A model generated the notes under the pieces. It was not told the DNA's origin, did no database searches, and saw nothing but the letters and a program-made list of their open reading frames with translations. 64,000 nucleotides of DNA, taken from the NCBI RefSeq assembly GCF_004127445.1, contig NZ_QEXM01000052.1, forward strand, positions 1-64,000, in the 5' to 3' direction. This document shows, piece by piece, positions 49,556 through 52,835 of this stretch. The DNA comes from Streptomyces alfalfae. Its GTDB lineage: Bacteria > Actinomycetota > Actinomycetes > Streptomycetales > Streptomycetaceae. How positions within the stretch are numbered: position 1 is the first letter of the stretch; the number at the start of each line of letters is the position of its first letter. Made by a program: the position numbers and the translations under genes.

Positions 49556-49677
49556 TTGCGTTGGGCCGTTAGAATGGCTGCCATGGCAGCTCCTCTCCTC
49601 AGTTGGACGGCGTAGACACCGGTCCCGACCACCCGCAGTCGTCCCTCTCGCCGTCCACCCTGTTCAGGAGTACCCCC

Positions 49678-51276
49678 GTGATCACCGCTTCCGGCATCGA
49701 GCTGCGCGCCGGCGCCCGCATCCTCATCGAGAACGCCACCTTCCGCATCGCGAAGGGCGACCGCATCGGCCTCGTCGGCCGCAATGGGGCGGGCAAGACC
49801 ACCCTCACCAAGTGCCTCGCGGGCGAGGGCACCCCCGCGGGCGGCACCATCGCGCGCTCCGGAGAGGTCGGCTACCTCCCGCAGGACCCCCGCACCGGCG
49901 ACCTCGACGTGCTCGCCCGCGACCGCATCCTCTCCGCGCGCGGCCTCGACACCCTGATCCGCAAGATGCGCGAGAACGAACAGCGCATCGCCAACGGCCA
50001 GGGCTCCACCCGCGAGAAGGCCCTCAAGCAGTACGAGCGCCAGGAGACGGAGTTCCTCACCAAGGGCGGTTACGCCGCCGAGGCCGAGGCCGCCACCATC
50101 GCCGCCGCGCTCAACCTCCCCGACCGCGTGCTCGGCCAGCCCCTGCACACGCTCTCCGGCGGTCAGCGCCGCCGCATCGAGCTGGCCCGCATCCTCTTCT
50201 CGGACGCCGACACGCTCCTCCTCGACGAGCCGACCAACCACCTCGACGCCGACTCGATCGTCTGGCTCCGCGACTACCTCAAGACGTACCGCGGCGGCTT
50301 CATCGTGATCTCCCACGACGTCGACCTCGTCGAGACGGTCGTCAACAAGGTCTTCTACCTGGACGCCAACCGCTCCGCGATCGACGTCTACAACATGGGC
50401 TGGAAGCTCTACCAGCAGCAGCGCGAGTCCGACGAGAAGCGCCGCAAGCGCGAGCGGCAGAACGCCGAGAAGAAGGCCGCCGCCCTGCACTCGCAGGCCG
50501 ACAAGATGCGCGCGAAGGCCACCAAGACCGTCGCCGCGCAGAACATGGCGCGCCGCGCCGACAAGCTCCTCGCGGGCCTGGAAGAGGTCCGCCAGAGCGA
50601 CAAGGTCGCCAAGCTCCGCTTCCCCGAGCCCTCGCCGTGCGGCAAGACGCCGCTCATGGCCGAGGGCCTGTCGAAGTCATACGGCTCGCTGGAGATCTTC
50701 ACCGACGTCGACCTCGCGATCGACAAGGGCTCGCGGGTCGTCATCCTCGGGCTCAACGGCGCGGGCAAGACGACCCTGCTCAGGTTGCTCGGCGGCGCCG
50801 AGAAGCCCGACACGGGCCAGGTCATCGAGGGCCACGGCCTCAAGCTCGGCTATTACGCGCAGGAGCACGAGACGCTGGACCCCGAGCGCACGGTCCTGGA
50901 GAACATGCGCTCGGCCGCCCCCGACCTCGACCTCGTCGAGGTGCGCAAGACGCTGGGCTCGTTCCTCTTCTCCGGGGACGACGTCGACAAGCCCGCCGGG
51001 GTGCTCTCCGGCGGCGAGAAGACCCGGCTCGCGCTCGCGACCCTGGTCGTCTCCTCGGCCAACGTCCTGCTCCTCGACGAGCCCACCAACAACCTCGACC
51101 CGGCGAGCCGCGAGGAGATCCTCGGCGCGCTGCGCACCTACAAGGGAGCGGTCGTCCTCGTCACCCACGACGAGGGCGCGGTGGAGGCCCTCCAGCCGGA
51201 GCGGATCATCCTGCTGCCGGACGGTGTGGAGGACCTGTGGGGCCAGGACTACGCGGACCTGGTCGCCCTCGCCTGA
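49678..51276 (+). CDS. ABC-F family ATPase
   Basis: A 532-residue soluble protein with two ATP-binding cassettes and no membrane segments. The first has GRNGAGKTT (near 35), LSGGQ and LLLDEPTNHLD; the second has GLNGAGKTT (near 360), LSGGEK and LLLDEPTNNLD. Between them is the charged linker (about 245-310, SDEKRRKRERQNAEKKAAA) that reaches into the ribosome in this family. Members act as translation factors or protect ribosomes from antibiotics; this core-located copy is more likely a housekeeping translation factor. Start GTG 49678 follows CAGGAG. Confidence 0.92.
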   Translation: MITASGIELRAGARILIENATFRIAKGDRIGLVGRNGAGKTTLTKCLAGEGTPAGGTIARSGEVGYLPQDPRTGDLDVLARDRILSARGLDTLIRKMRENEQRIANGQGSTREKALKQYERQETEFLTKGGYAAEAEAATIAAALNLPDRVLGQPLHTLSGGQRRRIELARILFSDADTLLLDEPTNHLDADSIVWLRDYLKTYRGGFIVISHDVDLVETVVNKVFYLDANRSAIDVYNMGWKLYQQQRESDEKRRKRERQNAEKKAAALHSQADKMRAKATKTVAAQNMARRADKLLAGLEEVRQSDKVAKLRFPEPSPCGKTPLMAEGLSKSYGSLEIFTDVDLAIDKGSRVVILGLNGAGKTTLLRLLGGAEKPDTGQVIEGHGLKLGYYAQEHETLDPERTVLENMRSAAPDLDLVEVRKTLGSFLFSGDDVDKPAGVLSGGEKTRLALATLVVSSANVLLLDEPTNNLDPASREEILGALRTYKGAVVLVTHDEGAVEALQPERIILLPDGVEDLWGQDYADLVALA

Positions 51277-51339
51277 GTCCGGCCGCCCGCGGGGTGCCCA
51301 CCGCCCGGTCCGCGCACCGCGGCGGCGTCCACTCGGCGT

Positions 51340-51389
51340 GATCGAACCGCTGATCCACTGCGTATGGATCATTCGGCCGATCCGTGATC
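51340..51389. promoter_or_regulatory. Cluster of five GATC sites upstream of gbn
   Basis: GATC occurs at 51340, 51352, 51367, 51379 and 51386, five times in 50 bp, with spacings of 12, 15, 12 and 7. The protein encoded 290 bp downstream belongs to a family reported to bind GATC, so this is a strong candidate for an autoregulatory site. The functional claim is inference. Confidence 0.6.
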
Positions 51390-51535
51390 CCTCATCTGTG
51401 TGAGCTGTCCTCGTACCGAGGTGTGTCCTACACGGATTTTGCGGGCCCCCGGTGGGATGGGGAAGGCGCCGGCTTCGGAAGCCCCTGACCTGCTCGTTCT
51501 CCGTGGCGCCGGATCTCGTACGGAAAATCCCGCGT

Positions 51536-51554
51536 GTGGAATCGTTAATTCCAC
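51536..51554. promoter_or_regulatory. Inverted repeat in the gbn leader
   Basis: GTGGAAT and ATTCCAC form a perfect 7-bp inverted repeat around CGTTA, 122 bp before the gbn start. Its A/T content stands out from the surroundings, consistent with an operator for another regulator. Confidence 0.4.
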
Positions 51555-51676
51555 TCGTGGTGGACGCATCCGGAACGAGGAACCTCGCCGTACTGACCTT
51601 GCCGAATGGGTGGCCAGGAAGCCCGCGAGGGGTGATCATGAGAAGTCCAGAGCGCACTTCCCATGAGGAGGCACGG

Positions 51677-51898
51677 GTGGCCGAGACTCTGAAGAAGGGC
51701 AGCCGGGTTACCGGCGCCGCGCGCGACAAGCTCGCGGCAGACCTGAAGAAGAAGTACGACGGCGGTGCGAGCATCCGGGCGTTGGCCGAAGAGACCGGCC
51801 GCTCGTACGGGTTTGTGCACCGGATGTTGAGCGAGTCCGGCGTCACGCTGCGGGGACGCGGCGGGGCGACGCGAGGCAAGAAGGCCGCCGCCGGCTGA
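51677..51898 (+). CDS. gbn: GATC-binding nucleoid-associated protein
   Basis: A 73-residue basic DNA-binding protein with one helix-turn-helix (residues about 30-54: GASIRALAEETGRSYGFVHR) and basic tails rich in lysine and arginine. The sequence is nearly identical in my memory to S. coelicolor SCO1839, named Gbn and reported as a small nucleoid-associated protein that binds GATC and affects sporulation and antibiotic production. The start GTG 51677 follows GAGGAGG. It is flanked by an unusual density of GATC sites on both sides. Confidence 0.88.
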   Translation: MAETLKKGSRVTGAARDKLAADLKKKYDGGASIRALAEETGRSYGFVHRMLSESGVTLRGRGGATRGKKAAAG

Positions 51899-51933
51899 TC
51901 GCGGCGGCGCGCTGCTCCATGGTCCGATGGTGG

Positions 51934-51965
51934 CCACCCGGCCGATCACGTGATCGACCGGGTGG
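51934..51965. terminator. GATC-containing palindrome downstream of gbn
   Basis: A near-perfect 32-bp palindrome with 16-bp arms, one mismatch and no spacer. Its centre reads GATCACGTGATC, so it holds two GATC sites. As RNA it would make a hairpin suited to ending the gbn transcript; as DNA it could bind Gbn itself. Confidence 0.6.
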
Positions 51966-52031
51966 TTACTGTGCAGTCACTTACGGGCGCTCACCCGCGC
52001 CCGGCCCGACCGCACCCCACCGGAGGCACCC

Positions 52032-52835
52032 ATGGCTTCGACCGACAGCGAGCTCGCACCGGTTCTCGACAAGGACGGCGTACGCCTCACCATCGACGAG
52101 GCCGTCGCCACGGTGACGCTGACCAACCCGGCCAAGCGAAACGCCCAATCTCCCGCGCTGTGGAGGGCGTTGGCCGAGGCCGGTCAGCTGCTGCCGGGCA
52201 GCGTCCGTGTCGTGGTGCTGCGCGGAGAGGGCAAGTCCTTCTCCGCGGGCCTCGACCGGCAGGCGTTCACGCCGGAGGGCTTCGACGGCGAGCCGTCCTT
52301 CATCGACCTGGCACGCGGCGACGACGGCGTCCTCGACGCCACGATCGCCGAATACCAGGAGGCGTTCACCTGGTGGCGGCGGAGCGACATCGTGTCCATC
52401 GCCGCCGTCCAGGGGCATGCCATCGGCGCCGGCTTCCAGCTCGCGCTCGCCTGTGACCTGCGGATCGCGGCCGACGACGTGCAGTTCGCCATGCGCGAGA
52501 CCAGCCTGGGCCTCGTTCCCGACCTCACCGGCACGCATCCGCTGGTGGGCCTCGTCGGCTACGCCCGCGCCCTGGAGATCTGCGCCACCGGGCGCTTCGT
52601 CCACGCGGACGAGGCCGAGCGGGTGGGCCTCGCCAACCTCGTCGTGCCCGCGGACCAGCTCGGCGCCGCCGCGAACGACCTCGCCGCCGCGCTCGTCGCC
52701 GCGCCGCGCGACGCCGTCATCGAGACCAAGGCACTGCTCCAGGGCGCCACGGACCGCACCTACGAGGAGCAGCGCGTGGCCGAGCGCGCCGCGCAGGGCC
52801 GCAGGCTCCGCGACCTCGCGGGCCTCGGCGACTGA
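52032..52835 (+). CDS. Enoyl-CoA hydratase/isomerase-family protein
   Basis: A 267-residue crotonase-fold protein. The oxyanion-hole segments are present (GKSFSAGLDRQAF near 67-79 and GHAIGAGFQLALACDLRIA near 124-142). The usual first catalytic glutamate is in MRETSLGLVPDL near 151. The typical PGAGG loop reads PDLTGTHPL here, as in several actinobacterial paralogues of unknown substrate. It probably acts on an enoyl-CoA in fatty-acid or amino-acid breakdown. Confidence 0.9.
   Translation: MASTDSELAPVLDKDGVRLTIDEAVATVTLTNPAKRNAQSPALWRALAEAGQLLPGSVRVVVLRGEGKSFSAGLDRQAFTPEGFDGEPSFIDLARGDDGVLDATIAEYQEAFTWWRRSDIVSIAAVQGHAIGAGFQLALACDLRIAADDVQFAMRETSLGLVPDLTGTHPLVGLVGYARALEICATGRFVHADEAERVGLANLVVPADQLGAAANDLAAALVAAPRDAVIETKALLQGATDRTYEEQRVAERAAQGRRLRDLAGLGD

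Follow-up and report, generated by a model that had tools for sequence, protein, structure and literature searches.

GATC sites upstream of gbn in Streptomyces alfalfae: a distal array with a conserved core and a widely conserved proximal GATCAT at a putative -10 position

The gbn locus

We analyzed a 64,000-nucleotide (64-kb) stretch of Streptomyces alfalfae DNA, referred to here as the window, in which gbn occupies positions 51677..51898 of the forward strand with its stop codon at 51896-51898. The gene encodes 73 aa, and the helix-turn-helix domain of the product matched the PF19575 (HTH_58) profile with 112.7 bits against a cut-off of 23.8 (E 7e-33), so that the assignment to the Gbn family made in an earlier sequence-only reading of the window was borne out. 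This was the sole PF19575 match in the source genome. Among named records, the nearest one found was from S. atriruber, at 99% protein identity. The GTG start was found at all 100 Streptomyces loci read, and a ribosome-binding site, GAGGAGG, was read from the sequence at 51665..51671 of the forward strand; it was near-invariant in the 100 Streptomyces. Upstream on the same strand lies an open reading frame (49603..51276, start codon as listed by the tool) which we take to be an ABC-F type ATPase, the name being recognized from the translation. Its 3' end holds a further GATCAT at 51204, the GATC of which was kept in 69/100 Streptomyces, and an intergenic stretch of 400 bp runs from its end (51276) to gbn. 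After gbn, at 51934-51985, we noted a 32-bp inverted repeat (CCACCCGG..CCGGGTGG) and then TTACTGTGCAGTCACTT, which was present at most 300 bp downstream of the gbn stop codon in 62 of the 100 Streptomyces. An Rfam scan of 51200-52050 returned four matches, all far under their gathering scores, and thus no known RNA leader.

The helix-turn-helix of Gbn is similar in sequence to that of Cbp1, a CRISPR repeat-binding protein (NCBIfam NF040595; E 5e-8), but Gbn scored 33 bits with this model against a cut-off of 140, and the model spans 135 positions compared with the 73 residues of Gbn. A PDB sequence search with Gbn gave two hits, both with E above 0.5. PF19575 also matched the control genomes Haloferax volcanii and Sulfolobus acidocaldarius; Du et al. 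(2022, PMC9239103) report no Gbn hits outside Actinomycetales.

In S. coelicolor, Gbn (SCO1839) binds GATC, and GATCWT best (PMC9239103). According to the same paper, Gbn alters when Streptomyces sporulates and produces antibiotics, gbn expression goes up during development, and constitutive expression of gbn delays sporulation by ~17 h. Gbn hardly alters DNA conformation in vitro, four sites in 50 bp gave three Gbn binding events, and the protein is described as generally, or on average, suppressive at promoters. Of the genes whose promoters Gbn bound strongly, only 9.5% were changed in the gbn mutant, so binding by Gbn often occurs without a direct effect. Deletion of both HU genes raises gbn transcription (PMC11472566), and gbn and the nearby ccr1 have no mutual effect on transcription (PMC11272600). 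In the main text of PMC9239103 we found no wording of autoregulation or feedback and no Gbn effect on gbn transcription; Table 1 of that paper has no mutant-comparison value for gbn because gbn was the deleted gene. A literature search for Gbn autoregulation in Streptomyces, which mostly covered sources other than subscription journals, found no report.

Genomes and control sets

A gbn match was present in 100 of 101 Streptomyces genomes (all except G079) and in 144 of 216 genomes of the class, which represent 60 of 85 genera with Streptomyces included. The Streptomyces set comprised 99 genomes drawn evenly from the genus and the window, giving 100 loci; one row containing N was dropped from two of the intervals in which GATC was counted (99/100). 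The class set comprised 60 loci from 58 genera in 28 other families, with one locus per genus except for two genera with two loci each; one of 59 genera, whose match had an E of 2.6e-6, was left out, and the gene start is uncertain for two loci (L302 and L305). A family was scored as having a site if any of its loci had it, and family counts are given because the shuffles ignore relatedness. Promoters of HU, cold-shock and Lsr2 genes were used as controls in 30 genomes, namely 29 of the class set and the window's own. One locus was left out of the HU control for too little upstream sequence, and the 89 control loci include a second HU and Lsr2 locus of the window genome.

Five GATC sites within 50 bp upstream of gbn

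Five GATC sites lie in a span of 50 bp at 51340..51389, starting at 51340, 51352, 51367, 51379 and 51386 with spacings of 12, 15, 12 and 7, which places the array 288-337 bp upstream of the gbn GTG at 51677 (-337 to -288). The array is real and unusual. The sequence-only reading had called attention to this density against an expectation of about one GATC per 200 bp, and both figures held: the window contains 301 GATC, or one per 213 bp, and 100 dinucleotide shuffles of the window gave at most four GATC in 50 bp. Apart from these sites, the tightest grouping of five GATC in the window spans 160 bp. When the 400-bp intergenic stretch alone was shuffled 5000 times, the array had a P of 0.0002, and two order-1 Markov sequences of genome length had no run of five GATC in 50 bp. 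This last simulation was lenient, since close GATC triples number 345 in the real genome and 141-145 in the simulated ones. GATC is thus common in the genome, which is the one point in favor of the cluster being due to chance; given the shuffle tests and the conservation described below, we regard that explanation as having a negligible probability, and for the three-site core it is refuted. Taken individually, the sites at 51340 and 51379 may be due to chance. Among the five, the site at 51367 (GATCAT) is the only match to GATCWT, the published consensus. Helical phasing of the sites was considered and gave no ground for a claim, the spacings of 12, 15, 19 and 7 not being multiples of a turn.

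A three-site core conserved in Streptomyces

GATC was present at the 51352, 51367 and 51386 positions in 83, 98 and 99 of the 100 Streptomyces, respectively, and at 51379 in 15. The conserved part of the array is therefore a three-site core (51352..51389) with spacings of 15 and 19. Its central pair, GATCAT with a GATC 19 bp further on, occurred in 97/100 Streptomyces (the three genomes without the pair being counted as misses), and 82 of these 97 also had the third site 15 bp before GATCAT. The two spacings of exactly 12 that had been pointed out before are present in the window, but they are not the conserved feature, since a GATC 12 bp ahead of the 51352 position was found in only 32 of the 97 genomes and one 12 bp past 51367 in only 15. 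Similarly, five GATC in 50 bp were seen in 11/100 Streptomyces, three being the commonest number (53/100). Among 80 named Streptomyces loci, 75 had the pair at 19, 65 had the third site at 15 and six had five GATC in 50 bp. Immediately ahead of the core, in a stretch of 60 bp, the Streptomyces set contained 102 GATC as compared to 44.5 in shuffles (maximum 59), with no excess in the next 60 bp (57 versus 49.7). An earlier fixed-interval count of these extra sites (67 versus 30) was discarded in favor of the core-anchored count, as the interval overlaps the core in a few genomes. Between the array and the proximal site described below, at 51477-51617, GATC was depleted in the 100 Streptomyces, with 26 GATC in -200..-100 as compared to 60 in shuffles and three in -100..-60 as compared to 12.

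Binding of Gbn to this region is already published for S. coelicolor. The ChIP summit on gbn itself was at -326 (25 h) and -324 (48 h), with enrichments of 67.75- and 58.18-fold, respectively, the top enrichment in Table 1 of PMC9239103, a table limited to the genes discussed in the text. Transferred to the window by homology, and as a position only, -326 corresponds to 51351, inside the array, and the sequence-only reading, which had proposed inspecting Gbn ChIP data at its own promoter in a related strain, was right as far as binding is concerned. Purified Gbn was also used in a gel shift with a gbn promoter fragment from -561 to -239 containing eight GATC (PMC9239103); in the 100 Streptomyces this interval held 3 to 12 GATC per genome; 20 genomes matched the S. 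coelicolor count of eight, and the window had seven.

The core lies in a larger conserved block (51349..51416) with near-invariant non-GATC letters (TTCGGC and TCATCTG.GTGAG). These letters would fit a block conserved for some other factor, or as an unrecognized second promoter, with GATC merely carried along. We give this explanation a small probability, because in S. coelicolor Gbn enrichment peaks at the block (PMC9239103), the 51352 position keeps its GATC in most genomes while its neighbors vary, and more GATC accumulate and turn over beside the block.

Outside Streptomyces, other genera of the same family had the core pair at just six of 20 loci. The expected conservation of the cluster across species was thus confirmed for the three-site core within Streptomyces, and for its pair at a minority of the family loci beyond it. 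In four genera of another family (f15), a separate group of five GATC is packed into ~90 bp in front of gbn, at about -135 to -50, which is not where the Streptomyces array lies. Paralogues of gbn were also searched as carriers of an array in a set of 20 loci, one of which (L313) had only 123 bp of upstream sequence; none of the 19 loci with 450 bp upstream had more than two GATC in 60 bp.

These counts bear on the proposal that Gbn regulates its own gene directly through the multi-site array. That the array is bound in S. coelicolor and that its core is conserved both stand; its role as the element responsible is doubtful. If the array were the main autoregulatory operator and the proximal GATCAT of little weight, the position of the ChIP summit, the near-constant core pair and the extra GATC piled up before the core would all be accounted for. 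However, the pair is mostly missing from the other genera of the family, the array lies ~260-300 bp from the putative transcription start, only one of its five sites has the preferred form, and looping over this distance is unlikely because Gbn hardly changes DNA conformation in vitro. We therefore consider this explanation unlikely.

A proximal GATCAT with counterparts across the class

A full Gbn consensus site, GATCAT, lies much nearer the gene at 51634..51639 (-43), where a -10 hexamer would be expected. The sequence containing it, GTGATCAT, was invariant in 100/100 Streptomyces, and GATCAT was present at this place in all 80 named Streptomyces loci and, at -40 to -43, in all 20 loci sampled elsewhere in the family. 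In the class set, GATCWT in either orientation was found in -110..-10 of gbn at 50 of 60 loci and in 24 of the 28 other families, the remaining 10 loci and four families having no proximal GATCWT; shuffles averaged 7.2 loci (at most 14) and 5.8 families (at most 10). GATCAT ranked first by excess among all 6-mers in this interval. In four other intervals GATCWT occurred at 10, 3, 7 and 2 of the 60 loci. Two of these counts (10 in -220..-120 against a shuffle maximum of 6, and 7 in -900..-800 against a maximum of 5) beat every shuffle, so the shuffles understate the background, but the excess falls well short of the margin seen in -110..-10. GATC itself was 1.57 times as frequent as in shuffles in -1150..-700.

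To set the site against promoters of the same genomes, we compared gbn with the control genes. The site was found in 25/30 gbn promoters versus 3/29 for HU, 2/30 for cold-shock and 2/30 for Lsr2 genes, i.e. 7/89 for the controls together (Fisher P 1e-14), and the mean GATC count per 100 bp was 1.6 for gbn and 0.36 for the controls at similar G+C. In further genomes of two families already sampled, which add depth and not breadth (loci from 30 of 33 matching genomes), the site was present at 27/27 loci and the promoter overlap described below at 26/27. Among the gbn paralogues, six of 20 loci had GATCAT within -50..-40 (L309, L313, L314, L317, L322 and L323) and one more had ATGATC, and some second copies of gbn may be under the same control. 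On these distributions the proximal site is conserved far more widely than the array and looks like the older self-control switch.

The GATCATG formed in the window offers a reading in which the site owes its conservation to the ATG, as the start codon of an upstream open reading frame or of an N-terminally extended Gbn. The ATG can be read through in frame into gbn in 63/100 Streptomyces, but it is out of frame in 36 and stopped in one; moreover, it is in frame and open at five of the 20 family loci and eight of the 27 class loci with GATCATG, about the chance level, and the three families with a turned site described below keep GATC without GATCATG at the TRGC-spaced position. A conserved start codon was rejected on these frame counts, and we consider the reading as a whole very improbable.

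A promoter-like arrangement around the proximal site

The hexamer TGGCCA (51611..51616, forward strand) resembles a -35 element and is followed by 17 bp (51617..51633), the spacer of the putative promoter, and then by GATCAT, giving the pattern TRGC-N19-GATCAT. A spacing of 17 bp is that of sigma-70 promoters, TGGCCA and GATCAT each fit four of six positions of the sigma-70 consensus hexamers, and GATCAT has the A at position 2 and the T at position 6 of the -10 box. A promoter and terminator scan of 51200-52100 with a rule of -35 and -10 hexamers at 16-18 bp and at least 9/12 matches found neither; TGGCCA-N17-GATCAT fits the spacing of this rule and reaches 8/12 matches. The segment 51611-51639 is thus promoter-like only, and as the gbn promoter TGGCCA-N17-GATCAT is putative.

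TRGC stood exactly 23 bp before GATCAT in 100/100 Streptomyces and in all 80 named loci. Of the 37 class loci with GATCAT, 24, representing 10 of 16 families, had TRGC at this distance, as compared to a mean of 0.35 and a maximum of 3 in 1000 shuffles; the other 13 had none. When only the promoter-like letters were required (TRGC-N19-NANNNT), the pattern was found at 33/60 gbn loci versus 2/89 controls. The source genome contains 18 occurrences of TRGC-N19-GATCAT, so the pattern alone is not diagnostic. In a look made after the first analysis, with spacers of 16-18 allowed, three families (f16, f20 and f32) kept the TRGC-spaced hexamer with GATC turned round (GAAGATC, CATGATC), which means that both the -10 position and GATC persist, and in a fourth (f35) the frame persisted without GATC (GACGAT).

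The first 11 bases of the spacer are the least conserved part of the block 51594-51676. This 83-bp block is otherwise near-invariant across Streptomyces, with the exception of ~11 bases at 51617-51627; it exceeds the needs of a promoter and ribosome-binding site, and part of it resembles an RNA hairpin by eye.

The fixed 17-bp spacing, the A and T at positions 2 and 6 and the family whose spaced hexamer lacks GATC would also be expected if the only role of GATCAT were that of the -10 box of gbn, with Gbn binding incidental. However, the -10 consensus needs neither the G at position 1 nor the C at position 4, GATC survives the change of orientation in three families, the control promoters of the same genomes rarely have GATCWT, and genomes without the site had a more divergent Gbn (Mann-Whitney P 0.015, relatedness uncorrected). 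On balance, an explanation of the site as a -10 box and nothing more appears improbable to us.

A model for the control of gbn

The consensus sites upstream of gbn are beyond chance and conserved, as an autoregulatory operator requires. With modest confidence we favor a model in which Gbn binds the gbn control region at two places, the proximal site on the putative -10 serving to lower its own synthesis and the distal array being an addition of the Streptomyces lineage. GATCAT at 51634-51639 would coincide with the -10 of the putative promoter, and Gbn bound there would keep RNA polymerase off so that less Gbn is made. Since Gbn prefers GATCWT and is suppressive at promoters, its presence on the putative -10 would most simply repress gbn. 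Occupancy of the proximal site in vivo and its negative effect are inferred; the published summit in S. coelicolor falls, by homology, on the distal array and not on the proximal site (PMC9239103). The distal cluster (51340-51389), a three-site core with extra sites that come and go, could place several Gbn molecules ~260-300 bp before the putative start; its role in the loop is probably one of tuning or buffering. Close packing of the sites may limit occupancy, as with the three events on four sites of Du et al.

The developmental rise of gbn would need an activator or relief of repression, for which an inverted repeat between array and gene is a candidate. This AtrA-like element, GGAATCGTTAATTCC (51538..51552), has the 15-bp form GGAAY-N5-RTTCC, a form taken from one published AtrA-responsive element (PMC4457907). 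It occurred at about -140 in 63/100 Streptomyces, at one of 20 other family loci and at none of the 60 class loci. That published element, GGAACCACCGGTTCC at ssgR, is a GGAAT-N5-ATTCC repeat, and a likewise built repeat lies between the gbn array and its gene; unlike at ssgR, AtrA binding at gbn is a prediction only, made by Du et al. (PMC9239103) for a site in the gbn promoter. In the same region, CTGACCTG at 51485-51492 was near-invariant in the 100 Streptomyces amid variable sequence.

More tentatively, and with less confidence than in the model itself, we suggest that in most Actinomycetes families carrying gbn the -10 of gbn is itself a Gbn site through which Gbn reads its own free concentration, extra GATC clusters such as the present array having been added independently in single lineages. 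If this is true, the balance between Gbn and chromosome copies would be sensed at one built-in switch, TRGC-N19-GATCAT or its turned form. Setting the level of Gbn matters in view of its effect on when sporulation and antibiotic production occur. The analysis names one six-base candidate switch with a counterpart in 24/28 other families, keeps it apart from the younger distal array, and supplies an operator sequence for predicting which sequence Gbn orthologues in other genera recognize.

Comparison with known systems

The closest known system is the S. coelicolor gbn promoter (PMC9239103), which concerns the same gene, has a GATC-rich stretch at the same place and yielded a multi-GATC fragment that was bound by Gbn; the account in that paper differs in that we found in it no description of a conserved proximal GATCAT, TRGC spacing or conservation in other families. 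What the present analysis adds is a three-site core kept in Streptomyces and, above all, a proximal site that recurs across the class at a promoter-like -10. Negative autoregulation through an operator overlapping the -10 box is a textbook class, and gbn resembles its members as a gene for a DNA-binding protein with its own consensus site at the putative -10. Unlike in the textbook class, the protein is nucleoid-associated and has thousands of targets, its site at gbn is the same short sequence that it binds genome-wide, and any repression there is putative.
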